This document shows, in pieces, positions 935 through 24,300 of a DNA stretch of 35,734 nt. The DNA lies in contig NZ_QHJY01000002.1 in NCBI RefSeq assembly GCF_003185805.1, positions 1 to 35,734 on the forward strand, written 5' to 3'. The position numbers and the translations under genes were made by a program. The DNA is from Caulobacter sp. D5 (lineage in GTDB: Bacteria > Pseudomonadota > Alphaproteobacteria > Caulobacterales > Caulobacteraceae). Within the stretch, counting starts at the first letter, position 1. Each line of letters opens with the position of its first letter. Below the pieces are notes generated by a model. The model saw nothing but the letters and a program-made list of their open reading frames with translations, was not told the DNA's origin and made no database searches.

Positions 935-1021
935 AGACCCCGACACGGCGGCTCACTACCGTCACCCTCAAGAAACGGCCTCCCGGCGTGCGGGACCAGG
1001 CCGTCGCTCGGAGAGGACTTC

Positions 1022-1939: not shown

Positions 1940-1974
1940 GTCCTGAACGCGCTCACGCCGCTCCGGCCGCCGGC

Positions 1975-1994
1975 CCTTCTTCCCGGGAAGAAGG
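1975..1994. repeat. 20-bp perfect palindrome between kdgD and the LysR gene
   Basis: CCTTCTTCCC is followed directly by its complement GGGAAGAAGG, with no loop, 36 bases after the kdgD stop. No T-run follows, so it is not a classical intrinsic terminator on either strand. It could be an RNA hairpin that separates kdgD from the LysR gene, an operator, or one copy of an intergenic repeat family; genome context is needed to choose. Confidence 0.5.
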
Positions 1995-2062
1995 CGCTGG
2001 CGATCGGCCCCAACGAACGTCTAGCCTCGCGACTCCAGGGTGTTGTCGACGGGCGCTTTCCG

Positions 2063-2971: not shown

Positions 2972-3029
2972 GGCGCTCTCCCTCCCGTCGCGGGCGCACG
3001 GCCCAACGACAAAAGACGGGAGAAGACCC

Positions 3030-4595: not shown

Positions 4596-4616
4596 GGCCC
4601 CTCTTTCGGGGGAGGC

Positions 4617-6467: not shown

Positions 6468-6470
6468 CGA

Positions 6471-7787: not shown

Positions 7788-7866
7788 GGACGCTCTCCCT
7801 GGGTCGCCGATCTGTCGTCGGCATCGTTCAGGGAAGGCTAGAGGGCGTCGCGGCGCAGGTCTAAGT

Positions 7867-7905
7867 CAATTCGCCTATGGACCGATCCACGGGCGACATG
7901 GATCG
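7867..7905. promoter_or_regulatory. Candidate operator in the gudP / TonB-receptor divergent promoter region
   Basis: The 20 bases at 7867-7886 share 14 positions with 901-920 upstream of kdgD (shared pattern CAATTC, three bases, TAT, one base, G, two bases, CGAT). Overlapping it, CGATCCA (7883-7889) and TGGATCG (7899-7905) make a 7-base inverted repeat with a 9-base spacer. The position, 80-118 bases from the gudP ATG and about 220 from the receptor ATG, suits a regulator controlling both genes. The rest of 7788-8124 shows no gene. Confidence 0.4.
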
Positions 7906-8124
7906 AACCGCGGTACGCATCGAAACCCAAGAGAATCAACAGGCCGGCCAAGCGGGTCTCGCCGAGCGCCCTTGGGGAACCCCGCCGATCTGTGCCGAAC
8001 GCGCATAGGTTCATACCCGATTGGGATTGGCCCTCTGCTCGAACCCGTCCCTATGGTTCAGCCAACGAAGGAGCGGTCCGCCGCTCCCCAAAGCGACCCG
8101 CGAAGACGGGCATCGGGAGGGACC

Positions 8125-10914
8125 ATGACGTCCAACAGGAATCCGCGCCTTCGCGCCGTGCTCGGCGCCAGCGCTTCGGCCTTCACGCTCCTGGCCGCCG
8201 CTCACGCCGCCGCCCAGGAAGCCCCGGCCCCGGCTCCGGCCCAGCCGGCCTCCGACGAGGTCGAGGCCATCGTCGTCACCGGCTTCCGCGCCAGCCTGCA
8301 GAGCGCCATCAATCTCAAGCGCAACGAAAGCGGCGTGGTCGACGCCATCAAGGCCGAGGACATCGCCCAGTTCCCCGACCTGAACCTGGCCGAGTCGCTG
8401 CAGCGCATCCCGGGCGTGTCGATCTCGCGCATCAACGGCGAAGGCCGCCAGATCACCGTGCGGGGCCTGGGCTCGGAATACACCCGCGTGCGCATCAACG
8501 GCATGGAGGCCATCTCCACCACCGGCGGCACGGCCAACAGCGGCGGCACAAACCGCGGCCGCGGCTTCGACTTCAACGTCTTCGCCTCGGACCTCTTCAA
8601 CAGCATCGCCGTGCGCAAGACCGCCTCGGCCGACGTCGAGGAAGGCTCGCTGGGCGCCACGGTCGACCTGACCACGGCCCGCGCCTTCGACAGCCGCAAG
8701 CCCCAGCTCGTGCTGTCGGCCGGCGCCAGCTACAACGACCTGTCGGAGAAGACGACGCCCCGCGTCTCGGTCCTGGCCAGCAACACCTTCTTCGACGGCA
8801 AGGTCGGCGCCCTGATCTCGGTCGCCTACGAAGAGCGCCATCTGAAGGAAGAAGGCGCCAACATCACCCGCTGGGCCACCGGCGCCAGCAACGGCGGCTT
8901 CAACAGCGCCTCGACCGTGCCGGGCTACACCATCGCCCAGATCAACAGCGCCAACCTCTTCGCCCCGCGCATCCCGGCCTATGTCAGCTACGACATCGAG
9001 TCCAAGCGCCTCGGCGTGGCAGGCTCGCTGCAGTACAAGCCGACCTCCGACACCCAGGTCACGCTCGACGCCCTCTACGCCTACCTCGCCGGTACGCGGA
9101 AGGAGGCCCAGTTGCAGGCGATCGGCCTGTCGCGGGCCAACACCGGCAAGCCGCAGACCATCATCCGCGACGGCGTCATCGAGAACGGCAACCTGGTCTA
9201 CGCCCGGATGGACAATGTCGATCTGCGCACCCAGTCGGCCTATGACGAGCTGAACACCGAGTTCAAGCAGTTCACCCTGTCGGCCACCCACGACTTCAAC
9301 GAGCGCCTGCGGATCGGCGGCCTGGCCGGCTATTCGGACTCGACCTTCACCCAGCCGGTCTCGACCATCGTCACCTTCGACCGGGCCAACAGCCAGAACT
9401 ACGTCTACGACTTCCGCAAGGGCCGTGCTCCGCAGATCCTGCTGGGCTTCGACGCGACCGACCCGACCAGCTGGGCCTCGACCAACGGCACCTCGGAGGT
9501 GCGCATCCGTCCGCAGTTCGTCGAGAACCAGTTCTCGACCGCCAAGGTCTATGGCGAGTGGGACCTCAACGACAATCTGCGCCTCAAGGCCGGCGTCGAC
9601 TGGCGCAAGTTCGAGTACGACAGCTACGGCCAGTACCGGACCAGCGAGACCGCGGTCCAGACCCTCACCCCGGCCCAGCTGGCGTCAGTGTCGAAGGTGT
9701 TCAGCGGCTTTGGCCGCAACATGGACCTGCCGGCCGGCAACTTCACCAGCTGGCTCGTGCCCGACATCGACAAGTACGCCGCCCTGCTGAACATCTACAG
9801 CAACAGCGGCATCTACGCCCTGACCGACACCAACAACTCCAGCGCCCGCGGCCAGTACGGCGCGGTCGAGGAGCAGGACACCGGCGCCTACGTCCAGGCC
9901 GAGTTCAAGTTCAACGCCTTCGGCCTGCCGTTCCGCGGCGACGCCGGCGTGCGGCGGGTGCACACCCAGCAGGAGTCGGCCGGCTATGCGGCGGTCAGCG
10001 GCGCGATCCAGCGCGTCGAGGTCAAGCGCGACTACGATCTGACCCTGCCCTCGTTCAACCTGGCCGCCGATGTGAGCGACACCATCGTGGCCCGCGTCAG
10101 CGCCGCCCAGACCATCGCCCGCCCGGGCATCGGTTCGCTGTCGCCCGGCGGCGACGTGGCCGTGCAGGGCGCCAACCGCACCTACAGCTCGGGCAACCCG
10201 TACCTGACCCCGACCAAGTCGGACAATCTGGACTTCTCACTGGAATGGTACCCCTCGCAGGGGGCGATGCTGGCGGTGGGCCTGTTCTACAAGCGCATCG
10301 ACACCTTCGTGGCCACCCTGCGCCGCGAGGCCGTCTACAACACTCTGGGCCTGCCGGACTCGCTGCTGACCGGCACCGGTGCGACCTCTTCGGAAGTGTT
10401 CCAGGTCACCCAGCCGGTGAACAGCGACGGCGGCGACCTGAAGGGCTTCGAGATCAATCTCCAGCAGCCCTTCACCTTCCTGCCCGGCTTCTGGCGTCAC
10501 TTCGGCGTGGTGGCCAACTACACCTATGTCGACTCCCAGATCGAGTATCTGACCTCGACCACGCCCGGCGCGCCGACCGTCAACGCCACCCTGGTGGGGC
10601 TGTCGAAGAACGCCGCCAACCTGACCCTCTACTACGAGACCGAAAAGTGGAGCGTGCGCGGCTCGCTGGCCTATCGCGACGGCTACCTGACCCAGGTGCC
10701 CGGCAGCGACGGCAACACCGTCCAGGGCACCAACGAGACCCTCAACGTCGACCTCCAGGCCAGCTGGAACATCCGCGACAACCTCAAGCTCTCGCTCGAA
10801 GGCGTGAACCTGACCGACGAGTTCAACGACCAGTACGTCGGCGATAGCAACCGCCTCAACGTCTACACCCACAGCGGCCGCCAGTTCCTGGTGGGCCTGC
10901 GGTACAACTTCTAG
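8125..10914 (+). CDS. TonB-dependent outer-membrane receptor
   Basis: The 929-residue precursor has a Sec signal peptide (LGASASAFTLLAAAHAAAQ, cut probably near residue 29), an Ala-Pro linker, and a TonB-box-like EAIVVTGFRASL. The plug follows (about residues 45-170, with AEDIAQFPDLNLAESLQRIP and QITVRGLGSEYTRVRINGME), then a beta-barrel ending in GLRYNF with the C-terminal Phe typical of outer-membrane proteins. It resembles the large Xanthomonas/Caulobacter TonB-receptor group often used for carbohydrate uptake. I chose the ATG at 8125 because GGGAGG precedes it and the signal peptide starts there, although the frame is open further upstream. There is no N-terminal signalling domain, so it is not expected to act through FecIR. 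It is divergent from gudP, and its substrate is inferred to feed the aldarate pathway. Confidence 0.93.
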   Translation: MTSNRNPRLRAVLGASASAFTLLAAAHAAAQEAPAPAPAQPASDEVEAIVVTGFRASLQSAINLKRNESGVVDAIKAEDIAQFPDLNLAESLQRIPGVSISRINGEGRQITVRGLGSEYTRVRINGMEAISTTGGTANSGGTNRGRGFDFNVFASDLFNSIAVRKTASADVEEGSLGATVDLTTARAFDSRKPQLVLSAGASYNDLSEKTTPRVSVLASNTFFDGKVGALISVAYEERHLKEEGANITRWATGASNGGFNSASTVPGYTIAQINSANLFAPRIPAYVSYDIESKRLGVAGSLQYKPTSDTQVTLDALYAYLAGTRKEAQLQAIGLSRANTGKPQTIIRDGVIENGNLVYARMDNVDLRTQSAYDELNTEFKQFTLSATHDFNERLRIGGLAGYSDSTFTQPVSTIVTFDRANSQNYVYDFRKGRAPQILLGFDATDPTSWASTNGTSEVRIRPQFVENQFSTAKVYGEWDLNDNLRLKAGVDWRKFEYDSYGQYRTSETAVQTLTPAQLASVSKVFSGFGRNMDLPAGNFTSWLVPDIDKYAALLNIYSNSGIYALTDTNNSSARGQYGAVEEQDTGAYVQAEFKFNAFGLPFRGDAGVRRVHTQQESAGYAAVSGAIQRVEVKRDYDLTLPSFNLAADVSDTIVARVSAAQTIARPGIGSLSPGGDVAVQGANRTYSSGNPYLTPTKSDNLDFSLEWYPSQGAMLAVGLFYKRIDTFVATLRREAVYNTLGLPDSLLTGTGATSSEVFQVTQPVNSDGGDLKGFEINLQQPFTFLPGFWRHFGVVANYTYVDSQIEYLTSTTPGAPTVNATLVGLSKNAANLTLYYETEKWSVRGSLAYRDGYLTQVPGSDGNTVQGTNETLNVDLQASWNIRDNLKLSLEGVNLTDEFNDQYVGDSNRLNVYTHSGRQFLVGLRYNF

Positions 10915-10944
10915 GCGCGACCTACCTCCCCCCGGCGCCTAGGC

Positions 10945-10987
10945 AGCCCGCGCCGCTCTCCTTCCAGGGCGGCGCGGGCTTTCTTTT
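10945..10987 (+). terminator. Intrinsic terminator after the TonB-receptor gene
   Basis: AGCCCGCGCCGC (10945-10956) pairs perfectly with GCGGCGCGGGCT (10969-10980) across a 12-base loop and is followed by TTCTTTT. It lies 31 bases after the receptor stop codon and marks the end of the aldarate locus just before the island boundary. Confidence 0.92.
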
Positions 10988-11089
10988 CGGGAAGGAAAGC
11001 AGCGCTCGCGAAGGCCTCGGCTGAAGCTTCACCCCGACGACGTCGGAGACACCGGCGAACTCAGACAGCCCCGTAGCGATAGTCATGAG

Positions 11090-11167
11090 TTGGCGCCCCT
11101 TGTCGGACGAAACTGATAACTACAATTACGCTATACTACTCCAGAGGATCCCCCGGAGTGACAAGGG
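11090..11167 (+). repeat. Left direct repeat (attL-like)
   Basis: This 78-bp copy aligns without gaps to 24964-25041 with nine mismatches. The longest identical blocks are TGTCGGACGAAAC (13 bases) and CGGAGTGACAAGGG (14 bases). It contains ACTCC (11138-11142) and GGAGT (11155-11159), inverted arms around a 12-base centre, which could be a recombinase core. It lies about 100 bases after the TonB-receptor terminator. No gene was recognised in 10988-11256. Confidence 0.75.
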
Positions 11168-11256
11168 TAGGAAAAAGAGGGCCTCGGGCGAAGAAGCCAT
11201 GCCCTGACGATCATACGCCTCTAGTCCCTATTGGTACAGCGCAGCCCCGATAGACC

Positions 11257-12036
11257 TCAACACATGGATTCGAGGGCGCTTCGCACTACCGCTGCGCTAG
11301 CCCCCTCGATGACCTTTCCAAGCCGGTTCCACCTCCGAGGCACTCCGACCAAGCGCGCCGGCTGATCAAAGTCCAACCGGCCGGCGATCATCGGAAGTCC
11401 AAAAATGGCACCGCCGCTCTTGCCGATCGGATTGCGGGGCGTGGTGTGCCCCTGCGCCCCGTGCGCGCCCCTCTTCCGATCGAACGACACTGCAACCAGC
11501 CCCGCCTCGGTCTCGCTAGCCATGTCGAAGTATGCCTCTTTGGGCGTGTCCAACCGCATGCCCGGCATCATCCGATGGGCGCTGATCGGGTGTCCGACGA
11601 CACTAGCGTAAAACACCTCGCCTATGGGGGCACCGCGCCCAAGCACCTCTTCGGGCATCACGCACGCCCTCGTCGCCGGATCCAGCACCTCCGATGACAG
11701 GGGGATGATCGCCAGGTCGACTTCTTTGTTGAAGTGCTCAACACCCTTGATCGCCTGGGCCAAGCCTGTCGCGTCGAAGTAGCCGATCGGCACACCGGGA
11801 TTGTCCAGAAAGACATGCGCGCATGAGACCAGCACGGGCTGCCCGCGAAATTGCAGTAAGGTGGCGCTGCCGATCAGATAGGGTACGCTGTGGGGCTTTT
11901 CCCCCACGATGGGCACAACGCTTCGGAGCAGCGGCTCCACCTTGGCCTCAGCGACCGATCGCGAAAAGCCATCAATAGGAAAGCGCGCTTCCAGCACTGG
12001 ATTTGCCGAGCGCTTCTTGAGCATTCGGTAGACCAT
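11257..12036 (-). CDS. Trypsin-like serine protease
   Basis: The 259-residue protein has the marks of a chymotrypsin-fold peptidase: His74 in VLVSCAHVF, Asp107 in KEVDLAIIPL, and Ser207 in IGKSGGAIFG, in the right order and spacing for a triad. The stretch GSATLLQFRGQPVLVSCAHV fits the first barrel. No signal peptide or membrane segment is visible, so it should be cytoplasmic. The ATG at 12036 follows a strong GGAGGAG. The gene is at the left edge of the island and is divergent from the rest of the cargo. Trypsin-like proteases occur in several bacterial defence loci, often as effectors or processing enzymes, but nothing here shows which neighbour, if any, it works with. Confidence 0.8.
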   Translation of the reverse strand: MVYRMLKKRSANPVLEARFPIDGFSRSVAEAKVEPLLRSVVPIVGEKPHSVPYLIGSATLLQFRGQPVLVSCAHVFLDNPGVPIGYFDATGLAQAIKGVEHFNKEVDLAIIPLSSEVLDPATRACVMPEEVLGRGAPIGEVFYASVVGHPISAHRMMPGMRLDTPKEAYFDMASETEAGLVAVSFDRKRGAHGAQGHTTPRNPIGKSGGAIFGLPMIAGRLDFDQPARLVGVPRRWNRLGKVIEGASAAVVRSALESMC

Positions 12037-12131
12037 TACTCCTCCCCTTTGCGACCTTCCTCAGGTCCTATCGGCCCGCGGCGTAGTCGACCGACACTGT
12101 GAAAGTTGGGTTCAGCGCTCGACGTTGGGGA

Positions 12132-12156
12132 TCGGGCGATACTTGTTATCACCCGA
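12132..12156. promoter_or_regulatory. Imperfect inverted repeat in the divergent intergenic region
   Basis: TCGGGCGATA (12132-12141) and TATCACCCGA (12147-12156) pair at 9 of 10 positions around CTTGT. It lies between the divergent protease gene (start 12036) and the nuclease-like genes (start 12257). It looks like an operator able to control both directions. No regulator gene is adjacent. Confidence 0.4.
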
Positions 12157-12256
12157 ACAAAACGCGCAGGGCTACGACAACCTTAAGGTAGTAAGCTAGC
12201 CAACTCGCTCAAGCCGCAATTCATTGTGGCTTGAGCTCGGCTCGAAGGGGGACCCA

Positions 12257-12418
12257 ATGGCGCGACCGGCTAGCGACAATCACGACTTCGAGCGGCTGAT
12301 CGCCGACCTGCTGCGCGCCAACGATTTCGAGGTGCAGGAGCAGCGACTAGACCAAAGGGGCTTTGACTTCCGTATCACGAGTCGCAGCGGGGAGGCCTTG
12401 GTCGAAGTCAAGGCTTAG
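12257..12418 (+). pseudogene. Truncated restriction-endonuclease-like fragment (53 aa)
   Basis: The 53-residue reading frame begins MARPASDNHDFERLIADLLR and ends VEVKA at a TAG stop. The pattern matches the start of an Mrr-like PD-(D/E)xK nuclease: an N-terminal FE-containing helix, an Asp in RGFDFRIT, and the Glu-x-Lys in VEVK. The stop comes one residue after the catalytic lysine, before the rest of the fold could be completed, so this is probably a decayed gene or a deletion scar. The start has a good GGGGGA 5 bases upstream. It ends 20 bases before the next gene, which also has a D...ExK signature. A functional small protein cannot be excluded. Confidence 0.55.
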
Positions 12419-12438: not shown

Positions 12439-13794
12439 ATGGAGGGCTTTCGCATTCGCCCCCTCGCCGAGGCCGATATCGAGCGGGTCGTCCTCGCCGC
12501 AGGCGGCCGCCGCGCTCACCTCGACGCAGATGCCCGCGAGCTGCGCGGGGCCGACTTCGTGCTGGGCGACGTGGTGATCGAGTTGAAGGCCTTGGACGAG
12601 GAAGGCTTCGAAAAGCCCGATCGGCAGCGCAAGCTGGCGGCGCTCTTTGCCCAGCACGAGTCTGGTCGACCGGTGATCGTCGTCGATCGCGAACGCTTGC
12701 CCGAAACTGACCAGCGGGCCTATGACCGCATCGTCGAAGGGCCGATCAAGTCCGCGATCAAGTCGGCGCGAGGGCAGCTAGCTCAATCGCGCATAGAGAT
12801 CGGCGAGACCCGCCATTCCGTCGTGATGCTGGTCAACAACGGCTACACCGCCCTCGACCACGACGAACTGCTGGCCCTGGCCGAGCGCCGGGCGCGCAAC
12901 GACAGCAGCGAAATTGACGGCGTCATCGTCGCCGGCTGCTACTTCCACAGCGACGGGTTCGACGCGAACTTCTTCTGGCCGATGCATTACATCCCGATAC
13001 GGAGCCAAGCCGTGCCGACGGTGTTCGAGGCCCTGCACGCGGCCTGGGACATCTTGGCCGAGGAAGCCATGACGGAGTTGGTCATCAAGGGCCATGGCGC
13101 ACTGGCGCATAAGGGACCGGTGGTCGATCTTGCCTTCGAGGTCGACGAGGTCACCTTCGTCAAACCCTCCCCGCCGATGGGCCGAAAGTCAGACTTCTTC
13201 GTGCGGGGCCGTCCGCGGAGCGACAGTTCAGGCCTGACCCATTGCCCTCCAGTGGCGCAAACCTATCCACGCCTGTCTCTCGCCGACTGGACACGGATGA
13301 GGAAGCTCCTTCATCAGGCGCCCGGTCTTTGCGATAGCTTCGAAGCTTGGCTCAAGCAGGAGCAAACGGCCGCCGAGGCGGCGGTTCCCCTTCAGCCGTT
13401 TGTGACCGTCCCGGTAACTGCGGCCGCTTGGAAGGCCTGGGCGAAAGCCGAACTGCGCAGCGCGAACTTCACGACGCTGACGACCTACGCCGCTCTTCAG
13501 TTCGAGCTGCGCGCGCGCAAGCTACTGGCGGCTGCGGTGGAGCAGACCGTCAGCGCCCTGCGGCCTACCCGGTACATCTTGGCGCTCACGGAGGAGATCG
13601 GCCAAGACCGCGCCAACGACGTCTCGCACCTCGCTGTGATCGATGAGACAGACGGCGGGTTTAGAGTCGAGCCGATCCTTGAGGACGTCCGGATGTTCCA
13701 TGAGTACGCTCTGGTCCTGGCGTGCGCCTACGCCCAGGCTCGCAGCGTCGAGGCGGTGCTGTGGCGAAAGGACCAGACCTATGGCTGGGTCTAG
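12439..13794 (+). CDS. Predicted PD-(D/E)xK-like nuclease, function unknown
   Basis: The 451-residue protein is not one I recognise by name. Near its N-terminus RGADFVLGDVVIELKALDEE places Asp39 (and Asp44) before Glu48-Leu-Lys50, a layout close to the PD-(D/E)xK nuclease core, and EKPDRQRKLAALFAQHE follows. The rest is mixed alpha/beta with no membrane segment; GVIVAGCYFHSDGFDANFFW and a helical C-terminal third are the most distinct parts. The ATG at 12439 follows a G-rich ribosome site. It starts just after a truncated nuclease-like frame and is followed by 439 bases without a supported gene, so it may have been the second gene of a two-gene nuclease operon. Nuclease activity is inferred from a short motif only. 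Confidence 0.6.
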   Translation: MEGFRIRPLAEADIERVVLAAGGRRAHLDADARELRGADFVLGDVVIELKALDEEGFEKPDRQRKLAALFAQHESGRPVIVVDRERLPETDQRAYDRIVEGPIKSAIKSARGQLAQSRIEIGETRHSVVMLVNNGYTALDHDELLALAERRARNDSSEIDGVIVAGCYFHSDGFDANFFWPMHYIPIRSQAVPTVFEALHAAWDILAEEAMTELVIKGHGALAHKGPVVDLAFEVDEVTFVKPSPPMGRKSDFFVRGRPRSDSSGLTHCPPVAQTYPRLSLADWTRMRKLLHQAPGLCDSFEAWLKQEQTAAEAAVPLQPFVTVPVTAAAWKAWAKAELRSANFTTLTTYAALQFELRARKLLAAAVEQTVSALRPTRYILALTEEIGQDRANDVSHLAVIDETDGGFRVEPILEDVRMFHEYALVLACAYAQARSVEAVLWRKDQTYGWV

Positions 13795-14233
13795 CACCAC
13801 CTGCCGCCCCACTGCTCTTTCTTCGATAGGAAAGCCATCCAGCGCTGAACAGGACAGAATGGCTCCGCCATCCATTAGGTTCAGTTCCCGAACTTGAGAG
13901 CCGCAACACCGGCGACGAGCAGAGCCACGCCCAAATATTTGCAATCTATGAGAGTGATAGCCGCTTTTGCGAACGAGCAAGCCTTTCGCAATCCGCGCCT
14001 CCCAAGCCTCCGGAGCGCACGACGACGTGGATGTGTTTGCCGGTCGCAATGCCGGCGACCGACCCCTTGTCGTGAATGCGCGTCGAAATCAAACTTGACC
14101 TTGAATTGCCGGCAGTGCGCAACTGTAGGACGCTTCAACCCATCGTCGCCGCGTCGCCGGACAAATGGCCCGCCATGGGTGACGGGCTAGTCCATGCCTT
14201 GGCCGCAGGGTCGCGGCGCTATTACCAGAGACC
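13795..14233. other. Gap without a supported gene
   Basis: These 439 bases separate the predicted nuclease gene from the giant NTPase gene. Short open frames exist on both strands (for example 13881-14138 minus), but none has a convincing ribosome site or a recognisable protein. No clear terminator or promoter was identified. Its composition is more mixed than the flanking genes, which fits an old junction or decayed gene. Confidence 0.5.
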
Positions 14234-17200
14234 ATGACTGCACCTGATATCGTTCGCGCTACCCGAGACGGGGACCAGTTCCACTATGTTTGGGCGGCTC
14301 GCCAGTGCCTGGGCCTGCTGACCGCGCAGGACGGCCTGGCGGCCGTGACGATCGAAGGGCCCTCGAACGCCGAAATCCCGGGCGAAGAGGTCGAGGCCGG
14401 TCAGGAGCTGATCGACGTTGGCCTCTACTATGGGAGCGAGCGCATCGATCAGGCTTCCGCAATCCGCTATGTTCAGCTCAAGCACTCGACCGCTCGAACG
14501 CAGACGCCCTGGACCGCCAGCGGCCTCAAGGGCACGATCGACGGCTTCGCCAAGCGCTATAGAGAGATCGTCGCGCGCTCCTCGCCTGAGGACGTCGCCG
14601 CCCGGTTCACCTTCCAGTTCACGACCAATCGACCGATCGACCAGCGCGTCATCGAAGCCTTGGAGGACTTGACCGTGGGCGCGCCGGCCAGGCACGGCGA
14701 TCTAGATGCCCTGCTACTTGGATATGCCGGGCTTGACCGAGGTTCCGCCGCCGCCTTCTTCCAGCTCTTCCGGGCCGAGGGGCTGGAGAACGATCTCTGG
14801 GCTCAGCAGAATCTTCTGGTCGAAGACCTGCGGGCCTTTCTGCCGGAGGCCGACGGCGACGCCCCGGTTCAATTGAAGGATCTGGTGACCCGCAAGGCCA
14901 CCACGCAGTTCGCCGACAATCCCACCATCTTGCGCTACGACGTCCTCAGGGCATTGAAGACCGGCGAGGATGAGCTCTTCCCCTCACCGCCCCTGATCGA
15001 AGGCGCCTCCGAAGCCTTCGCCCGCGAGCAGGAGCCTGAAATCGTTCGAGTAGTCGTTGGCGCCGCTGCGCCTGTGGTGCTGCACGCCGACGGCGGGGTG
15101 GGCAAATCCATGGTCGCCACGCGCTTGGCGTTGGCTATGCCCGCCGGCTCGGTGACGATCGTCTACGACTGCTTCGGCACCGGCCTCTATCGAAGCGCCG
15201 TTGATTTTCGCCACCGCCATCGCGACGGTCTCGTCCAGATCGCCAACGAGCTGGCGGCCAAATCCCTTTGTCTTCCGCTGATCCCGTCGGCGCACGCAAA
15301 TGCGAAGACCTACGTCCGCGCCTTCCTGCACCGCCTTCGCCAAGCCTCGACGGTCTTGCGGGCCAGGGCGCCAGGCGCCCTCCTGTGCTTGGTCATCGAT
15401 GCCGCCGACAATGCGGAGATGGCTGCGGCCGCCCAGCAGGAGGCGTCGAGCTTCGCGCGAGATCTGATCCGGGCGCCGATGCCGGAGGGCGTTCGCCTGG
15501 TCTTCACGTCCCGAAGCCATCGCCGCGCCAGCCTCCAGGCGCCGCCGGAGGCTATCGAAATCGCGCTTCGCCCATTCAGCCTGGCCGAAAGCGCGCTTCA
15601 TCTGCGGCGCGTCTATTCAGCGGCCACCGACAGCGAAGCGGCCGAGTTCGATCACCTCACAAGCTCCAACCCGCGCGTCCAGGCACTGGCCATGGACCAG
15701 AAGCGTCCGTTGGCCGAGATGCTGGCGGCCTTGGGCCCAAACCCGACAACCATCGAAGCGGCCATTGGCGAACTCCTGGCCGGCGCGATCCGGGGCCTCA
15801 AGGACAAGGCCCATGGTGTCGGCGAGCAGCAGATCGAACAGATCTGCCGGGGCCTGGCGGTGTTGCGCCCGCTGGTGCCGATTTCGGTGCTGTCTCGCCT
15901 AACCGGTGTCGACGAGGGCGCGATCAGAACCTTCGCGTTCGACCTTGGACGTCCATTGCTGGTGCGGGGCGACAGCCTCCATTTCCTGGACGAGCCGGCC
16001 GAGACATGGTTTCGGGAGACCTTCACTCCCGACGCAGACGGCCTGAAAACCTTCGTCGACCGGCTAAGGCCGCTCGCCAATTCAAGCTCCTATGTCGCCG
16101 GCGCTATCCCTCAACTGCTGCTTGAGGCCGGCCGCTATGACGAGCTGGTCGAGCTGGCCCTGTCGACCGACGCGCTGCCGTCGGACAGCCCCCTGGAGCG
16201 CCGCGACGTCGAGCTGCAGCGGCTGATCTTCGCGCTCAAAGCCTGCCTTCACATCAAGTCCTACCCGTCGGCGGCCAAGCTCGCCCTCAAGGCGGCCGGC
16301 GAGACCGCCGCGGAGAACCGGCAAAACGCCCTTCTCAAATCCAATATCCACTTGGCTGGCGTGCTCCTTGCGCCCGATCGCCTGCAGGAGCTGGTGTCAC
16401 GGCGCACGTTCGGAGGGGGGTGGCAGGGCGCGCACCATGTCTATGACGCCGCCCTGCTTTCGGCTCGACCGGAATTTGCCGCCGACGCCAGCAGCCGCCT
16501 GCGGATGGCGCTCGATTGGCTGTTTGCCTGGTCCCGCGCTCGGTCAGACGACGACGATGATGGCAGCTCCCCGCGCGGCGACGTCACCGATAGCGACCGC
16601 GCCACGTTCTGCCTGGCCTATCTGCGCCTCAAGGACGCCAAGGCGGCCGTAGGCTTTCTTCGCCGGTGGCGTCACCGGCCGCTGTCGTTCAGCGTCGGCC
16701 GCATCTTAGCGGCCAAGTTGATCGATCTGGGTGATCTGGACGCCCTGGACGCCCTGGCCTCGTCATGCCGAAACGACATCTGGCTCTTATTGGCCCTGGC
16801 CCGGGCGATCAGGTCGTGCGGTCGAAAGATGCCAGCGCCTGCGCTCGAACGGCTGCTTCGGTTTCTCGAAGACCGCCGCGTCCAACTGGCGGAGTCGAAC
16901 GGATGGAACGAGAAATGGGACGTGCTGGAGGCGGTCACCGCAGCCGTCGAGCTGGCGATCGCACAGCTTCCGCCGGCGCCTGAGCGTTGGGCGGCGCTCA
17001 TCCGGCGCTACCTCCCCTCTTCGCCGCCGCACGCATTCACCAGCGACCTGCCCTACGACCGTGCCGAGATCCTGCGCGCCTACGTGCTGGAGGCGACGCT
17101 GCGGGGCCAGACACTCGCGCTCGTGGATATCGCGCCACCGGACGTTCGCGCCGAACTCGAGCAGGACCCCAAGCCTTACAATTTCAGCCGCGAGTGCGAG

Positions 17201-20200
17201 ACCTTCCTGCGAGAGACCGGCGGCCTTCTACCTTGGGTGCAGCTTGGCGTCGATATCGTCTGTTCGCGCGAGCCCGCAGAGCTTGGCGGGGCGATCAGCG
17301 CCGCCGCCGAGGCCAGTGACAAGGCGGGAAAGCGCGACCACCGAGAAGCCTTCCAGCTTCGCAACGCAAACGCGATCCTTTGGCTTACCACCCTTCGCCA
17401 GACCGGGCTGATCACCGGTGAAGCGCTTGAGGCCTTCAAAACCTGGAGAGCTGGGCCCACCATTACGCTCTGGCCCCAGACGCTGACCGCCTTGTGCCGT
17501 ACCGCCGCCCGAACGGCCGGTCTGGAGGCCTTCTCGCTCGATCTCTGCAATGAGACCCTGAAGGCCCTGGAGGCGAGCCGGGAAGACGCCCAGGAGCGGA
17601 CGGAAGCCTATTTGCAGCTGGCGCGCGCCATCTATCCAGTGAGCGCCGATGAGGCCTCAGCGGTGCTCGATCACGCCGTCGCGATCGCCGACAGGATCGG
17701 CGAGGAGAACCTGGATCGTTGGAGCGCGCTGCTCAACCTGGCGCGATCGGCCGGCAGCGGCGACGCGCCTCGACCCAGATCGGCCTATCGCCTCGCCCGG
17801 GCCGCGGAGCTGACCTACGAATATGTGGTGCGTGACAAGCACTTTGCCTGGGACGAAACGGCCAAGTCGCTCGCCGCGCTTTCGCCGAGCTCCTGCCTGG
17901 CGATCTTCAGCCGATGGCGCGACCGGCGCTTTGGCCATGCCGCGCGGCTGCTGCCCATCGCGATCGAGACGTTTGTCAAAAGCCAGCAACTGCCGCCCCT
18001 CGCCTTTCCAGTACTGGCGGGCCTTGAGGCCTGGTGGTCGAGGATTGAGAACCTCAAGGATTTCCTCGCCAAGGAGCCGCTGCCATGGCGCCGGACTCAA
18101 GGCGCCGAGATCGCTTACCGCTATATCCGTCTGCAGTCGCAAGAACCGGAGAACTGGAAATCTTTGGCGGAACTGGCCCGCGCCCACGAGCTGGATTTCC
18201 CCGACCTGGATCGCCTGCGCCAAGCAAGCCAGGCCGTCGCGGACACCGACGCCGCGGCGGAGGCGGCAGCCGCCGCGCGCGCCAAGGCCGAGGCGGCCGC
18301 TCGTCCGCCGAACCTTGGCCTTCGCGCGGAAAAGGCGCCCCCCGACTGGGAGGCTGTTTTCAAAGACATCGACCCTGGCGCCACCCAATCCTTGCGCGAG
18401 GCTCATCGCCGCTGGCGCACCTTTGGACCGCCCTACTTCCTTGAAGCCTTCATCTGCGAGGCGGCCCGGCGGCTGAAACCAGGCCAAGAGTCCCCGCTCC
18501 TTCGAGCGATCACCGAATGGCCCGACTTCAATATCTATAGCCTTCGCAGCTTCCTGGATGGCGCGCCCGAGGCTTGGCTGGACCGCCTGGCCTATCGACA
18601 AGCGCTTAAGACGGCAGTCCTCACGGTTTGTCGTCGCGATCCCACGCGGGTCTATCTACGCGGCTGGGGACGCGTCCTCCCGTTTGAGATGCTCTTCACC
18701 AAAGGCGTCCTGACCGAAGCGGAGGTGGTCGCGGCCCAGATCAGCGGCTTTACCGACCTGGTCGCCGTACTCGACGCCGGCGGTCTTTTCCATCTGCTCG
18801 ATCCAATCGCCGCCACCCTGACCCCCGATCAGGCCGATGAGGCTTTGCACTATGGGCTCGACCTGTTCGAGCCGACGCTGAACGAGGAGGACGGCGATGG
18901 CGTCTGGACCGACGCCTTGGCGCCGAAGGAGGATCTGATCGAAGCTCTGGCCGGCTACATCTGGGCGGGCTTGGCCTCGCCCAAGGTGGCTGAGCGTTGG
19001 GCTTTCGCCCATGTCGTACGCAACGCCGTCGAGATGGACTGGCGGGAGCTTCTGAAAGCCTTGGCGCAGCTGGCCCAGGCGAGCAAGGCCGGCCCTTTCG
19101 CCGACCACCGCCTACCCTTCTATGCTTGGCATGCCCGCCAGTGGCTGATCATCGGCCTGGAGCGCGGGGCCCAGTCGCGCGCCGCCGCCCTGGCGCCGTT
19201 CATTGCCTGGCTGCAAGACGTAGCGCTAGATGAGCACGTGGTCATCGCCGAGTTCGCGCGACGATGCCTGGTGGGCTGGGCGTCGACGCCGGACGGAAAA
19301 GACTTCGCCCTATCGACGCTGGATCAGGTCAATCGGCCCCTTCATCCGAAGACGATCTACCAGAGCTGGTTTCGCGATGAAGAGGCCGAGGCCGAAGAGG
19401 CCATCCCTGACGAAGACAAATACTATTTCGGCCTCGATGTCGGCCAGTATTGGCTCGCCCGCATGGGGGGTGTTTTTGGGCTGTCGCAAGGCACGACAGA
19501 AAGGCTGGCCTTGAAGGTGATCCGAGCGCGCCTGGGCGCCAATGGCGGCGGCTGGCGGGACGATGCGCGCCACACTCGCAAGATCTTCCGTGACGGCGAG
19601 ACCCATCATTCTCACGGCAACATGCCGAAGACCGACAATCTCGGCGCTTATCAAGGCTATCACGCGATGATGTTGACGGCGGGCGCGCTGCTCAAGACGC
19701 GTTCCGTTGGCCAGCAAGCCGACGCCGACGAGGACAACTTCACCGATTGGATCGATGATCGCCTCCTGCGGCGCACGGACGGGCGCTGGCTGTTCGATAG
19801 GATCGATCCGGCCCTGCCTCGGTCGTCGAACGACAAAGGCTCATACGATGCCGAATGGCCCTGGCTGATAAGCCGCGACCATCTGGACGCGCAATTGCTA
19901 ACTGCCGATGGCCGCACGGTGCTTTGGGGCTATTGGGCCAATGGCGGCAACTACCGGCGCGAAAGGGTCACGGTCCGCAGCGCCCTGGTGTCTGAACCCG
20001 CCGCCTCGGCTCTCCTGACCGCCTTGCAAACCGCCGACGAGCCTGGCCGGCTCTCCCTTCCCGACGCCGAGCGGTCCGACGCGGTGGAAATCGACGACGC
20101 CGTGCTCTTTGGTTGGGTCGCCGACCACAGCTATGGCTCTGGCCTGGATGAAGAGGATCCGTGGGCCGAGGGGCTTCACTTCCCAGGTCCCGCCCCCGCC

Positions 20201-20533
20201 AACGACATCATCGGCAAGCTGGCGCTCGAGCAGGATGCGGACGCGCGTTGGTGGCGAAGCCCGGACGGCGCGACGCTGCTGAGCGAAACCTGGACCACGA
20301 CCGAAGATCATGGACGCGACGAGACGACCGTTTCGAGTTGGCGGCTCTCCGGAGACAAGGCCTCTGTTGCCGCCCTTTTGCAGGCGCATCCGGGACACTG
20401 TCTCATCCTGACGGTCGGCATGCGCCGCGATCTGCCCGATTATGCCCGGCGCAACGGCGAGTTCATCGAGTATCCGTGGTCCTATATGCGTTCCTACCTG
20501 ATGAGGTCCGATGGTGCCGCAACCCCGTTCTAA
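14234..20533 (+). CDS. Giant STAND-like P-loop NTPase with N-terminal nuclease-like domain
   Basis: The 2099-residue protein has three visible parts. Residues about 1-130 resemble Cap4/DUF4297-type dsDNA nuclease domains: DQFHYVWAARQCLGLL, Asp61 in LIDVGLYYG, and Gln81-Leu-Lys83 in RYVQLKHST. Residues about 255-480 form a P-loop NTPase: Walker A ADGGVGKS (285-292), then IVYDCFGTGLYRSAVDFRHR, Walker B-like LCLVIDAADNAE (384-395) and LVFTSRSHRR. The remaining 1500 or so residues are mostly helical, with a His cluster (H1791, H1792, H1794, H1810) and a more globular end. This is the architecture of STAND/Avs-like defence sensors: nuclease effector, NTPase switch, and a large C-terminal sensor. 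I do not recognise it as a named type. A 224-residue partner overlaps its 3' end by 23 bases. Anti-phage function is inference. Confidence 0.78.
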   Translation: MTAPDIVRATRDGDQFHYVWAARQCLGLLTAQDGLAAVTIEGPSNAEIPGEEVEAGQELIDVGLYYGSERIDQASAIRYVQLKHSTARTQTPWTASGLKGTIDGFAKRYREIVARSSPEDVAARFTFQFTTNRPIDQRVIEALEDLTVGAPARHGDLDALLLGYAGLDRGSAAAFFQLFRAEGLENDLWAQQNLLVEDLRAFLPEADGDAPVQLKDLVTRKATTQFADNPTILRYDVLRALKTGEDELFPSPPLIEGASEAFAREQEPEIVRVVVGAAAPVVLHADGGVGKSMVATRLALAMPAGSVTIVYDCFGTGLYRSAVDFRHRHRDGLVQIANELAAKSLCLPLIPSAHANAKTYVRAFLHRLRQASTVLRARAPGALLCLVIDAADNAEMAAAAQQEASSFARDLIRAPMPEGVRLVFTSRSHRRASLQAPPEAIEIALRPFSLAESALHLRRVYSAATDSEAAEFDHLTSSNPRVQALAMDQKRPLAEMLAALGPNPTTIEAAIGELLAGAIRGLKDKAHGVGEQQIEQICRGLAVLRPLVPISVLSRLTGVDEGAIRTFAFDLGRPLLVRGDSLHFLDEPAETWFRETFTPDADGLKTFVDRLRPLANSSSYVAGAIPQLLLEAGRYDELVELALSTDALPSDSPLERRDVELQRLIFALKACLHIKSYPSAAKLALKAAGETAAENRQNALLKSNIHLAGVLLAPDRLQELVSRRTFGGGWQGAHHVYDAALLSARPEFAADASSRLRMALDWLFAWSRARSDDDDDGSSPRGDVTDSDRATFCLAYLRLKDAKAAVGFLRRWRHRPLSFSVGRILAAKLIDLGDLDALDALASSCRNDIWLLLALARAIRSCGRKMPAPALERLLRFLEDRRVQLAESNGWNEKWDVLEAVTAAVELAIAQLPPAPERWAALIRRYLPSSPPHAFTSDLPYDRAEILRAYVLEATLRGQTLALVDIAPPDVRAELEQDPKPYNFSRECETFLRETGGLLPWVQLGVDIVCSREPAELGGAISAAAEASDKAGKRDHREAFQLRNANAILWLTTLRQTGLITGEALEAFKTWRAGPTITLWPQTLTALCRTAARTAGLEAFSLDLCNETLKALEASREDAQERTEAYLQLARAIYPVSADEASAVLDHAVAIADRIGEENLDRWSALLNLARSAGSGDAPRPRSAYRLARAAELTYEYVVRDKHFAWDETAKSLAALSPSSCLAIFSRWRDRRFGHAARLLPIAIETFVKSQQLPPLAFPVLAGLEAWWSRIENLKDFLAKEPLPWRRTQGAEIAYRYIRLQSQEPENWKSLAELARAHELDFPDLDRLRQASQAVADTDAAAEAAAAARAKAEAAARPPNLGLRAEKAPPDWEAVFKDIDPGATQSLREAHRRWRTFGPPYFLEAFICEAARRLKPGQESPLLRAITEWPDFNIYSLRSFLDGAPEAWLDRLAYRQALKTAVLTVCRRDPTRVYLRGWGRVLPFEMLFTKGVLTEAEVVAAQISGFTDLVAVLDAGGLFHLLDPIAATLTPDQADEALHYGLDLFEPTLNEEDGDGVWTDALAPKEDLIEALAGYIWAGLASPKVAERWAFAHVVRNAVEMDWRELLKALAQLAQASKAGPFADHRLPFYAWHARQWLIIGLERGAQSRAAALAPFIAWLQDVALDEHVVIAEFARRCLVGWASTPDGKDFALSTLDQVNRPLHPKTIYQSWFRDEEAEAEEAIPDEDKYYFGLDVGQYWLARMGGVFGLSQGTTERLALKVIRARLGANGGGWRDDARHTRKIFRDGETHHSHGNMPKTDNLGAYQGYHAMMLTAGALLKTRSVGQQADADEDNFTDWIDDRLLRRTDGRWLFDRIDPALPRSSNDKGSYDAEWPWLISRDHLDAQLLTADGRTVLWGYWANGGNYRRERVTVRSALVSEPAASALLTALQTADEPGRLSLPDAERSDAVEIDDAVLFGWVADHSYGSGLDEEDPWAEGLHFPGPAPANDIIGKLALEQDADARWWRSPDGATLLSETWTTTEDHGRDETTVSSWRLSGDKASVAALLQAHPGHCLILTVGMRRDLPDYARRNGEFIEYPWSYMRSYLMRSDGAATPF

Positions 20534-21185
20534 GGCGATCATCGACCTTGGCAAACGCTTGGTCGAACAGCTGAACGATGATGGCGACCTGGCCGCGGCC
20601 TGGCTGTCGCACTTGCTGGCCGAACGCATCGTGGCGGCCGAACAGGCTGAAGGCGAACAGAAGGTCGCCGCCGAAGACGCGTGCGTGAAGCTGATCCTCG
20701 AACTTTGGAGCAAGCGAAACCATTTCAACGACCACCATCGCCCCTTGCGGGATATGGATTCGATCGTCCGGACCCTCGCCTCCCTCGACGTCGAGCGCGT
20801 CGACCACCGCTATTTCAGCAACGTTCTTCGGGGGCCAGCGGCCAATGGCGTGCCCGAACCGGCTCGCCAGTGGCTCGAGTTCGCGACCGAACTCGACACC
20901 ACGGCCAAGACCTTGATCCGGCTGGCGCTCGCAAAGGCCGTCGAAGCGATGGGTCCCGACGCTCAGGCCTGGACCGATTTGGCCGCTGAAGCGGCCGTGG
21001 AGGAGCCCGCCGAGACGCTCATCGTGCGCTTCGTCTCGCCCGGGCACAGCGACGACGATTGGGAGCGGCAGGCTCGTCGGCGAGAGATCAAGAGCCTGCG
21101 CGAGTTCATCGCCCTGTCCGAGGGCCTCGCCGACAGCCTGCAAGCCAAGCTCGACGTCGAAACGCCGCCCGATAAGCCAAATTAG
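20511..21185 (+). CDS. Small partner of the giant NTPase, unknown function
   Basis: The 224-residue protein is acidic, almost wholly helical by composition and soluble. It starts MVPQPRSKAIIDLGKRLVEQ; the ATG at 20511 lies inside the last 23 bases of the giant NTPase gene with GAGG just upstream, so the two are almost certainly co-translated and act together. Recognisable features are LILELWSKRNHFNDHHRPLR near residues 61-80 and a charged C-terminal helix. No catalytic motif, transmembrane segment or DNA-binding fold was recognised. Possible roles, all inferred from position, are an inhibitor, an assembly factor or a second sensor for the NTPase. Confidence 0.75.
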   Translation: MVPQPRSKAIIDLGKRLVEQLNDDGDLAAAWLSHLLAERIVAAEQAEGEQKVAAEDACVKLILELWSKRNHFNDHHRPLRDMDSIVRTLASLDVERVDHRYFSNVLRGPAANGVPEPARQWLEFATELDTTAKTLIRLALAKAVEAMGPDAQAWTDLAAEAAVEEPAETLIVRFVSPGHSDDDWERQARRREIKSLREFIALSEGLADSLQAKLDVETPPDKPN

Positions 21186-21533
21186 TCGGGCAAGAGCCAG
21201 GGCGCTCGAAGTCGGTGGCCTTAGGGCTACGATCAAGGGCAGTCGCAGACACTGCTCCCAAATCCGATCTTCGCGCGTATGGCTGGCGAAACGACGGCGG
21301 GGCGACACGCCGGACTCCAACTCCATGCGCAGGCCCAGCTTGCCAGGCCTGTGCATGCTGTTGGCGCAACAAGTTTCGAGCTTCCAGACGCCCGGGGGCG
21401 GGAGGAGTCCTCCCAGGCCTTTCTGCGTATCGCCGCGCAAGAGTTCTTGATTTGTTCCAATGCATGAACTAGCGTCGATGGGCAGGACAACCGGTAGGAA
21501 CCTGCTAGACATCGGTCTTCACCGCCCGATGGA
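21186..21533. other. Gap before darT containing a palindrome
   Basis: These 348 bases hold no supported gene. GGGAGGA-G-TCCTCCC at 21400-21414 is a perfect 7-1-7 inverted repeat about 120 bases before darT and is the best candidate operator for the toxin-antitoxin operon. Short frames on both strands here lack ribosome sites and family resemblance. Confidence 0.5.
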
Positions 21534-22181
21534 ATGCCTATGCCAGGAACGGTCCCAAAGCCGACCCAGATCATTCACATGACCCACATCGGCAATCTCG
21601 ACGCCATCTTCGCCAGGGGCGCGCTTTCCGCGACCGCGAAGCTTCAGGCACGGGGAACGCAGTTCACCAACATCGCCTATTCGTCGATCCAGGGGCAGCG
21701 GGCGACCAAACAAGTGCCGTGCGGTCCCGGCGGCTGCCTGCATGATTACGTGCCGTTCTATTTTACCACTCGCAGCCCGATGCTCTACACGATCAACCGA
21801 GGAAACGTGCCTTGTGAGGGCGGACAGGACGCCTTGGTGCATCTTGTTTCGACAGCTCAGAAGGTCGCGGCGGCCGGCCTGGGCTACGCTTTTAGCGATG
21901 GCCACGGAATCATGGCCTACTCCAGCTTCTACGATGACCTCGCCCAACTTGATGAAGTGGATTGGGGTGTCATCGGCAGCCGGCAGTGGGCGGACACGGT
22001 TGAGGATGGCGATCGCAAGCGACGCAAGCAGGCTGAGTTCCTGGTCTGGGATAGCTTTCCCATGCGCCTTCTGAGTGGCATTGCGGTGAGATCGCCGCAA
22101 CGCCGCCAGCAGGTGGAAACCTTGCTGGAACGACATGGGTTGGAACTGAAAGTGGTGGATAAACCCGCCTGGTACTACTAG
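21534..22181 (+). CDS. darT: DarT-type DNA ADP-ribosyltransferase toxin
   Basis: The 215-residue protein is a DarT (DUF4433) toxin, which moves ADP-ribose from NAD+ onto bases in single-stranded DNA (thymidine or guanosine, depending on the subtype) and so blocks replication. Family features are PTQIIHMTHIGNLDAIFARG (residues 10-29), Arg56 in GQRATKQVPCGPGG, the aromatic YVPFYFTTRSPMLYTI, and Glu168 in KQAEFLVWDSFP, which corresponds to the catalytic glutamate. The protein is full length. A second ATG at 21540 is an equally good start. The DarG-like antitoxin gene follows after 10 bases. DarTG pairs act in phage defence. The target base cannot be read from the sequence. Confidence 0.9.
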   Translation: MPMPGTVPKPTQIIHMTHIGNLDAIFARGALSATAKLQARGTQFTNIAYSSIQGQRATKQVPCGPGGCLHDYVPFYFTTRSPMLYTINRGNVPCEGGQDALVHLVSTAQKVAAAGLGYAFSDGHGIMAYSSFYDDLAQLDEVDWGVIGSRQWADTVEDGDRKRRKQAEFLVWDSFPMRLLSGIAVRSPQRRQQVETLLERHGLELKVVDKPAWYY

Positions 22182-22191
22182 GAAGCCTGCG

Positions 22192-23244
22192 ATGATCACA
22201 TTCGCGAGCGGCGACCTCCTCCAATCGGGCGCCGAAGCCATCATCAACACCGTCAACTGCGTCGGGGTGATGGGCAAGGGCATTGCCCTGCAATTCAAGC
22301 AGGCCTTTCCACGCAACTACGATGCCTATCGGCGCGCTTGCGAGGCCGGCGAGGTGCGGCTGGGCGAGATGTTCGTCTTTGACACGGGCAGTATGATCAA
22401 CCCGCGCTGGATCATAAACTTCCCGACCAAAGGCCACTGGAAGGCCAACTCTCGGCTGGAAGACATTGTCATCGGACTGGAAGACCTCAAGCGGGTGATA
22501 GTCGATCGGAACATTCGATCGATAGCAGTCCCTCCCCTGGGATGCGGCAATGGCGGTCTGAATTGGCGCGATGTCGAACCGGCCATCCGTCACGCCCTCG
22601 GAGACCTGAACAATGTCGATGTTCGCCTGTTCGCCCCGGGCGCCGCGCCGAAGGTCGATGAAATGCGCGTGGGCACTGAGCGGCCGAACATGAGCCGCGG
22701 TCGCGCCCTGGTGCTAAGCCTGCTGGGCCTTTATGGCGCTGCCGGTTACCGTCACAGCCTGCTGGAGATCCAGAAGCTGACTTATTTCCTTCAAGCAGCT
22801 GGCGAAGACCTCAAGCTCGGCTTCCACAAGCACCACTATGGACCCTACGCCGAGAACTTGAACCACGTCCTTCAGCGCATCGAAGGACACTTCATCCGGG
22901 GCTATGGCGATCGCAGCCAAGCCGCGGAGATTGCCGTACTCGAGGACGGGCGGCAGGAAGCCGAGGCTTTCCTGTCCAGCGAAGAGACCGCTCAACAGCG
23001 CTTGGAGCGTGTCGCCAAGCTAATTGAGGGCTTCGAGACGCCCTACGGCTTGGAACTACTCTCGACCGTGCATTGGATCCTGACCCACGATCGAGATTCC
23101 AAGAACGATCCTGAGCGCGTGATAGAGGCGGTAAAGTCGTGGAACCCGCGCAAAGCCGCCATCATGCGCGAACCGCATATCCGGACTGCTATCAATCATC
23201 TGCGCAGCCATGGATGGGTTGATCAGGACGCCCACGCGGCCTGA
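22192..23244 (+). CDS. darG: DarG-type macrodomain antitoxin
   Basis: The 350-residue protein has an N-terminal macrodomain (about residues 1-155) that removes the ADP-ribose placed on DNA by DarT, and a C-terminal domain that in known DarG proteins binds the toxin. Macrodomain marks are TVNCVGVMGKGIALQFK with Asn22, the loop INFPTKGHWKANS whose Lys80 matches the lysine essential in characterised DarG, and VPPLGCGNGGLNW. The C-terminal part (from about residue 165, MSRGRALVLSLLGLYG, HHYGPYAENLNHVLQ) is typical of full-length DarG. The start at 22192 has AGGAAG upstream. It is co-transcribed with darT, and 59 bases separate it from the ADP-ribosyltransferase gene downstream. Confidence 0.93.
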   Translation: MITFASGDLLQSGAEAIINTVNCVGVMGKGIALQFKQAFPRNYDAYRRACEAGEVRLGEMFVFDTGSMINPRWIINFPTKGHWKANSRLEDIVIGLEDLKRVIVDRNIRSIAVPPLGCGNGGLNWRDVEPAIRHALGDLNNVDVRLFAPGAAPKVDEMRVGTERPNMSRGRALVLSLLGLYGAAGYRHSLLEIQKLTYFLQAAGEDLKLGFHKHHYGPYAENLNHVLQRIEGHFIRGYGDRSQAAEIAVLEDGRQEAEAFLSSEETAQQRLERVAKLIEGFETPYGLELLSTVHWILTHDRDSKNDPERVIEAVKSWNPRKAAIMREPHIRTAINHLRSHGWVDQDAHAA

Positions 23245-23303
23245 TCTTCGTCATTCAGGAACCCGCGACAGCGCAACCGCAGCTTTCGACCGCGAGGACT
23301 TCA

Positions 23304-24089
23304 GTGAAACGAAGCCGCCTGACGCTTGAGAGCGTACCTGGCTTGGCCACCTTCGCCACAGCGCCTCTGGACCATGAGTACGAGGCCTATCTCTTCGGCT
23401 CCGACGTCGAAGCCGTTCCATTTCCCCACTGGACGGCACACCTTCGCGAGTTCTGGGGCTGGTACGCAGAGGCGCCTGACTATACGACCAGCGCCGAGCA
23501 CCTTCCCACGGTCAAGGCGATGATCGCCGAAGGCCTGGTCCAGCAACGCCTTGAGGATCTCGCTGAAGAAGTCACCCAGGCAAAGTCGGGCGAAGAGCTC
23601 AACTGCTGCCTGGTCCGGCAGTACACGCGCGAAGGGCGGCTCTATCGAGAAATCAACGAAGTACTCCGGCGCGGCCATGTAGGCGAAGATCTGCGCCAAC
23701 ACGGTTTCACGCCGTGGGTGCTTCAGTTCAACTCGGCAATTCGTCAACGGCCGATCTTCGAAGGTGTCAGCTATCGCGGTGCGCGCCTTACTCCGGCGGA
23801 CATCGACAAGTACCAGCCCGGCCTGATGTTCGAATGGGGCGGCTTCATCTCCGCCAGCAAACACCGCGACGTCGCGGTCGACATTGCCGGAAACGTCCTG
23901 TTCGAGATCACTCCCTGGGGTTCGTACAGCATGTACGGCAAGCGTAACCCAATCGACATCGCGGAGCTCTCCATAGCACCCGACGAAGCTGAGGTTATCT
24001 TCCCGATCGCTTGCACCTTTCGGGTTAAGGGGACTCGCAAGGAAGGACATCGATCGGTGATCGAGATGGAGACGGTCGATCAGTACTGA
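23304..24089 (+). CDS. R-S-ExE ADP-ribosyltransferase, third gene of the DarTG operon
   Basis: The 261-residue protein starts at a GTG with GAGGA upstream. Its C-terminal two thirds fit an ART-fold mono-ADP-ribosyltransferase: REINEVLRRG (115-124), the NAD-binding Arg158 in VSYRGARL, Ser183/Ser185 in GGFISASK (the F-x-S-x-S motif), and Glu228-Ala-Glu230 in DEAEVIFP, the ExE motif that usually marks arginine-directed protein transferases. Residues 1-100 are mostly helical. No signal peptide is visible, so it acts in the cytoplasm. It is unlike DarT, which has a different sequence and targets DNA. There is no obvious separate antitoxin after it; the next features are terminator-like hairpins. 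It may be an accessory effector or an independent toxin; the target is unknown. Confidence 0.75.
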   Translation: MKRSRLTLESVPGLATFATAPLDHEYEAYLFGSDVEAVPFPHWTAHLREFWGWYAEAPDYTTSAEHLPTVKAMIAEGLVQQRLEDLAEEVTQAKSGEELNCCLVRQYTREGRLYREINEVLRRGHVGEDLRQHGFTPWVLQFNSAIRQRPIFEGVSYRGARLTPADIDKYQPGLMFEWGGFISASKHRDVAVDIAGNVLFEITPWGSYSMYGKRNPIDIAELSIAPDEAEVIFPIACTFRVKGTRKEGHRSVIEMETVDQY

Positions 24090-24108
24090 GCAGCCTACCT
24101 GCTTTTTT
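24089..24108 (+). terminator. Intrinsic terminator after the ART gene
   Basis: AGCAG (24089-24093) pairs with CTGCT (24099-24103) and is followed by a run of T to 24108. A second hairpin, GGCTCT-TGG-AGAGCC at 24115-24129, and a weaker GACC-TTTG-GGTC follow. The first overlaps the last base of the ART stop codon. Together they probably end the darT-darG-ART transcript. Confidence 0.65.
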
Positions 24109-24269
24109 AGGATCGGCTCTTGGAGAGCCTCTGTCCGACCTTTGGGTCATTTACTTCCTGCCCACCGCCTCCCCCGTCCGGCTCCGCTCACCACCTCCCT
24201 GGCCAGGTCGGTGGACGGCTAGCTAGCGCCAGACACGGTGCGCCTCCCTGGCCTGCAATCGATAGCGCC

Positions 24270-24300
24270 TTAACATTTTGGGACGCAAGGGCTTGATAAT
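24270..24300 (+). promoter_or_regulatory. Possible promoter of the small AraC-type gene
   Basis: TTAACA (24270-24275) and GATAAT (24295-24300) each match five of six bases of the sigma-70 -35 and -10 consensus. The 19-base spacing is long, so the call is tentative. It lies 29 bases before the chosen start at 24329. Confidence 0.35.

Follow-up and report, generated by a model that had tools for sequence, protein, structure and literature searches.

The 35,734-nucleotide (nt) stretch of the Caulobacter sp. D5 genome analyzed here (the window; assembly GCF_003185805.1, contig NZ_QHJY01000002.1, positions 1 to 35,734 of the forward strand) contains two overlapping genes whose sequences identify them as a diverged AVAST type 3 pair, Avs3a and Avs3b, and hence as an ordinary member of an already described immune system (Table 1). 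The larger product matches the PADLOC Avs3a model with a score of 2428 bits (residues 1 to 2096 of 2099 on model positions 1 to 2087 of 2090), the smaller matches the PADLOC Avs3b model with 178 bits (residues 5 to 219 of 224), and these are the sole PADLOC matches of the two proteins at E values up to 1. The best NCBIfam matches are to the corresponding families, NF041816 (Avs3a; 2558 bits) and NF041817 (Avs3b; 164 bits), and a search of the PDB with the large protein returned a single match at E values up to 1, 8dgc_A (SeAvs3), with 1465 bits over residues 6 to 2095. Because both open reading frames (ORFs) match named families over almost their full lengths, chance is excluded. Models of the other AVAST types (1, 2, 4, and 5) gave no PADLOC match at E values up to 1, and among the NCBIfam Avs models the large protein matched Avs3a alone.

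The features of AVAST type 3 present in the window are full-length Avs3a homology, the nuclease residues, the Walker A and B motifs, and an adjacent Avs3b gene. Neither product reaches the curated NCBI equivalog cutoff (2558 against 2800 bits for NF041816 and 164 against 200 bits for NF041817), so the pair is classed as divergent within the type and as lying outside those equivalogs. The closest relatives compared are about 50% identical to the window Avs3a (49.7%, and 51.1% for Halomonas) and 38 to 41% identical to the window Avs3b; identity to the Klebsiella Avs3a (L010) is 39%. Scores and identities this low would suit a distinct two-component STAND system other than Avs3, with the small protein as an obligate coeffector and a sensor for something other than terminase, but such a system is highly improbable in light of the full-length matches to Avs3a, Avs3b, and 8dgc and the end-to-end alignment of the window pair with NCBI-annotated avs3a and avs3b genes (records L008 and L010). 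A new, distinct system was rejected on the PADLOC, NCBIfam, and 8dgc matches. The original prediction had regarded an obligate small partner as setting the system apart from known Avs, which does not hold, since Avs3b is a named component of AVAST type 3; it had also named a close match to a characterized Avs as evidence against itself, and Avs3a (PDB 8dgc) is such a match. In plasmids of Janthinobacterium and Klebsiella, the NCBI annotation likewise places avs3a and avs3b next to each other, with an overlap.

Table 1. Features of the AVAST type 3 locus and the adjoining DarTG genes in the window
Feature	Position (nt)	Strand	Basis
avs3a, STAND sensor protein (nuclease, NACHT NTPase, sensor), 2099 amino acids (aa)	14234..20533	+	PADLOC, NCBIfam, and PDB matches
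N-terminal PD-(D/E)xK (Cap4-like) nuclease domain, residues 1 to ~235	14234..14938	+	Border is an estimate
Nuclease residues E41, D61, Q81, K83	14354, 14414, 14474, 14480	+	Conservation and alignment to SeAvs3
NACHT NTPase domain, residues 281 to 463	15074..15622	+	Pfam NACHT
Walker A, GGVGKS (K291 at 15104)	15092..15109	+	Within NACHT domain of avs3a
Walker B, IDAADN (D389)	15395..15412	+	Within NACHT domain of avs3a
C-terminal sensor region, residues ~700 to 2099	16331..20530	+	Inside SeAvs3 (8dgc) alignment, residues 6 to 2095
avs3b, all-helical partner, 224 aa; start codon within avs3a end	20511..21185	+	PADLOC, NCBIfam, and AlphaFold2
avs3a/avs3b overlap, 23 bases	20511..20533	+	Sequence
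DarT toxin	21534..22181	+	Over NCBI cutoff
DarG antitoxin	22192..23244	+	Over NCBI cutoff

The coordinates, protein lengths, strand, and overlap of the two genes are exactly as originally predicted, and the predicted architecture (an N-terminal nuclease-like domain, a P-loop NTPase, a long sensor, and a coencoded small helical partner) was borne out by the Pfam NACHT match (30.0 bits against a cutoff of 26.7), the SeAvs3 alignment, and an AlphaFold2 model of the partner. The motifs of the large protein, E41...D61...Q81-x-K83, GGVGKS, and IDAADN, are real and conserved among relatives. Across 79 aligned Avs3a proteins whose frames reach at least 1900 aa, the window protein included, the P-loop K291 and the Walker B D389 are kept in all 79, and E41, D61, Q81, and K83, which align with SeAvs3, are each kept in 77. 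Motif and conservation together indicate which of these nuclease residues are probably catalytic. The C-terminal sensor is more variable, with a mean identity of 0.24 to 0.38 by segment versus 0.51 for the NTPase.

The exceptions to conservation of the nuclease residues are few. The open frame of L069 lacks an N-terminal stretch, and L079 departs at K83 only. The Avs3a of a Shewanella plasmid (L017, positions 3221 to 9520) begins with an unrelated-looking N-terminus that offers no counterpart of E41 or D61, and its Q and K are aligned in one alignment but the K alone in another; it retains the NTPase, the sensor, and Avs3b despite the replacement, possibly an effector swap within Avs3. At four further loci (L004 at positions 5986 to 12260, L066, L089, and L096), avs3a is split over two or three ORFs, each with an intact-looking Avs3b beside it.

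The pairing of the two genes is nearly constant. A scan of genome contigs found 249 Avs3a relatives, and the Avs3b profile located a partner at 75 of the best 80 loci. The contig ends inside Avs3a at three of the others (L037, L064, and L084) and within Avs3b, part of which is visible, at a fourth (L058); the only long Avs3a with no detectable Avs3b, searched over 9 kb downstream, is that of a Phenylobacterium (L051, positions 15237 to 24225). Thus, among the best 80 of 249 relatives, Avs3b adjoins Avs3a at 76 of the 77 loci with readable downstream sequence, at least 3 of the 76 having only a fragmentary or split Avs3b (L047, L076, and L079). The hosts, going by the titles of the records, presumably span several phyla. 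Homologues of the large protein lacking the partner, the other finding that the original prediction had said would count against it, are therefore not the rule, though Avs3b is missing beside distant Avs3a-like genes. The Phenylobacterium locus indicates that Avs3a does not depend absolutely on the partner in every host.

Matches among plasmid records number 19 for Avs3a and 8 for Avs3b; of the 13 Avs3a-matching records that were examined, 9 have Avs3b beside Avs3a. The four without it (L011 and L014 to L016) encode distant Avs3a-like proteins and come from Agrobacterium, Cupriavidus, Janthinobacterium (L014), and Tistrella; these proteins resemble the window protein in length and alignable layout but are less than 30% identical to it; an equally distant Rhizobium locus (L013) does have an Avs3b-like neighbor. 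A contig from a viral collection, IMG/VR, also carries the pair (L120; Avs3a at 303 to 6578 and Avs3b at 6454 to 7245). In a Qipengyuania plasmid (L005, positions 8742 to 9699), Avs3b occurs without Avs3a, next to an integrase gene. The sequence directly upstream of this Avs3b (8742 to 8990) resembles the Avs3a C-terminus, the best of 79 queries matching with an E value of 3e-6 and five others matching at the same place with E values of 4e-5 to 0.04. A stand-alone Avs3b was rejected for this case, which is better read as the remnant of an Avs3a lost, likely by deletion.

The two genes also appear to be linked in expression. The sequence GAGG (20503 to 20506) directly precedes the avs3b start, and together with the overlap it suggests translational coupling. 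Counting the window, 85 loci carry both genes, and at 84 of them the avs3b reading frame stays open through the avs3a stop codon.

An AlphaFold2 model of Avs3b, built from an alignment of 64 Avs3b proteins, is all helix (mean pLDDT of 87.3; pTM of 0.76), and none of the 64 departs from G14, W31, H34, W66, or D129. Sequence comparison of Avs3b with the PDB gave no match at E values up to 10, a profile search gave chance matches only, and no clear structural relative of the model was found. By sequence, Avs3b is thus unlike any PDB chain, and SeAvs3 seems to have been solved as a tetramer in its absence. A full-text search of the literature covered for Avs3b by name returned no relevant paper, judging by titles.

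Evolutionary distances of Avs3a and Avs3b are strongly correlated (r = 0.93 across 67 of 73 pairs, near-duplicates having been removed), and none of 1,000 permutations gave so high a value (highest, 0.15), but the permutation leaves joint inheritance uncontrolled, and the correlation mostly reflects such inheritance. Partial correlations with Avs3b by Avs3a segment, calculated from 65 pairs after L017 and L069 were dropped, are highest for residues 1750 to 2099 (0.40) and lowest for the nuclease (-0.17); these values are small, their significance is untested, and shared descent is not removed from them. They hint weakly that the divergence of Avs3b follows most closely that of the C-terminal end of the sensor.

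The near-constant pairing, the parallel divergence of the two proteins (strongest for residues 1750 to 2099), and the survival of Avs3b in L017 lead us to the tentative reading that Avs3b is a dedicated partner of the C-terminal end of the sensor, needed in the cell to gate activation. Avs3b might instead be an antitoxin-like inhibitor that holds Avs3a off until infection, not a coactivator or stabilizer. A small partner with an overlapping start that is almost always kept would fit this role, as would the apparent recovery of the SeAvs3 tetramer without Avs3b, and the persistence of Avs3b beside the replaced N-terminus of L017 shows that it is not tied to the nuclease domain. An inhibitor is nonetheless less likely than not, and the long Avs3a of L051, which has no Avs3b nearby, argues against a strictly needed antidote.

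Close to the host, the locus is patchily distributed, as is usual for defense genes. Avs3b matches occur in 5 of the 398 genomes of the order, 4 of them strong, host included; in all four of the latter, Avs3a ends within a few bases of Avs3b (in G148, the start of Avs3a is lost at the contig end), and the fifth match is marginal (E value of 5e-4) and without Avs3a. Among 385 genomes of the class, the host alone matches Avs3b. Avs3a occurs in 2 of 61 genomes, the host and a genome (G060) whose distant homologue (L003) has no Avs3b beside it, and no Avs3a match was found in 36 same-genus genomes of that set. Another same-genus genome, G194, carries the Avs3a-Avs3b pair.

The window ceases to be collinear with each of the three same-genus genomes examined at 10991 to 10993, just after a TonB-dependent receptor gene. 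It has a G+C content of about 0.69 at either end and of 0.58 to 0.67 from 11 to 25 kb, being lowest after DarTG, and that of avs3a (0.64 to 0.67) hardly differs from that of the receptor gene (0.66 to 0.68). The outer genes scanned are ordinary and include the TonB receptor, a transporter, and chemotaxis genes. DarTG, which acts in phage defense through DNA ADP-ribosylation, directly follows avs3b. Upstream of avs3a, on the plus strand, a 64-aa ORF (12224 to 12418) matches Mrr_cat (22.9 bits against a cutoff of 21) and ends one residue after an EVK motif, and a 451-aa ORF in another frame (12439 to 13794) has no clear match; the two are possibly a broken nuclease gene. On the minus strand, positions 11257 to 12036 encode a weakly trypsin-like protein with CAH and GKSGG motifs (Pfam Trypsin_2, E value of 0.067, below the cutoff).

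The patchy presence of the locus, with Avs3a in 0 of the 36 same-genus genomes and the pair in one other, raises the question of whether the window holds a decayed or nonfunctional copy of Avs3. The broken appearance of the upstream ORFs, including the Mrr_cat fragment, and the splitting of Avs3a over several frames at the four loci noted above point in the same direction, and the failure to find a sigma-70-like promoter in positions 13700 to 24300 says little (0 found, with 1.1 expected by chance). Decay is nevertheless scarcely probable in this case, because both frames are open and all catalytic residues are intact.

What we observe is the homology and architecture of the two proteins, the conservation of the catalytic residues, and the near-constant pairing; with tetramer formation and nuclease activation carried over from the relative SeAvs3, these make the window pair very probably an AVAST type 3 anti-phage locus, with a tetramer-forming, DNA-cutting Avs3a that probably senses terminase and its partner Avs3b. 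The neighboring DarTG genes, another phage-defense pair, are in keeping with such a role. SeAvs3 is reported to respond to terminase (Gao et al., 2022), and the primary papers on Avs3 are those of Gao et al. of 2020 and 2022. Avs3a would rest as an inactive NTPase-nuclease until its long C-terminal sensor engages a conserved protein of the phage, by homology most likely the large terminase subunit. The NTPase would then support assembly of a tetramer, as taken from SeAvs3, pairing the N-terminal Cap4-like nuclease domains, and the paired nucleases would cut both phage and host DNA, which would stop the infection and usually kill the cell. Avs3b would be supplied by coupled translation as a small helical partner, and it may bind Avs3a and determine how stable Avs3a is, or at what threshold it is activated, in the cell. 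SeAvs3 is described as tetramerizing upon binding viral proteins, with activation of the paired nuclease domains (PMC11291478), and Avs1 to Avs4 as acting as nucleases once they recognize terminase, portal, or a further phage protein (PMC12931631). Related Avs proteins sense phage proteins other than terminase (PMC12931631), which counts against the terminase trigger presumed for the window Avs3a by homology.

In the host genome, Terminase_6N gives two hits, of 143 and 24 bits (L109 and L110), and TerL_ATPase (PF03354) gives none; a resident host terminase may thus have to escape Avs3.

Among known systems, the window pair is most like SeAvs3, with a near-equal length (2099 versus 2092 residues) and shared catalytic residues, and like AVAST type 3 in general, with its downstream overlapping Avs3b, from which it differs in its diverged sequence. 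The CBASS Cap4 nuclease is controlled by a cyclic-nucleotide sensor. The nucleases of CBASS Cap4 and HerA-DUF4297 (Cap4/DUF4297) share the PD-(D/E)xK fold class of SeAvs3, and that of HerA-DUF4297 is under HerA control (PMC11291478), whereas in the window the nuclease is fused to a NACHT NTPase followed by a long sensor. AVAST types 1, 2, 4, and 5 are likewise STAND sensors of phage proteins (PMC12931631), but type 1 has a nuclease-protease pair (PMC12799240) and type 5 has a Sir2 effector (PMC12931631).

The locus thus adds to a system that was itself already described a diverged Avs3 member that scores below the NCBI cutoffs. A useful by-product is the count of Avs3b, which accompanies Avs3a at 76 of the 77 readable loci and whose function thereby becomes a clear target. 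If Avs3b is a gating partner, Avs3 would be a two-protein sensor and not a single-protein one.
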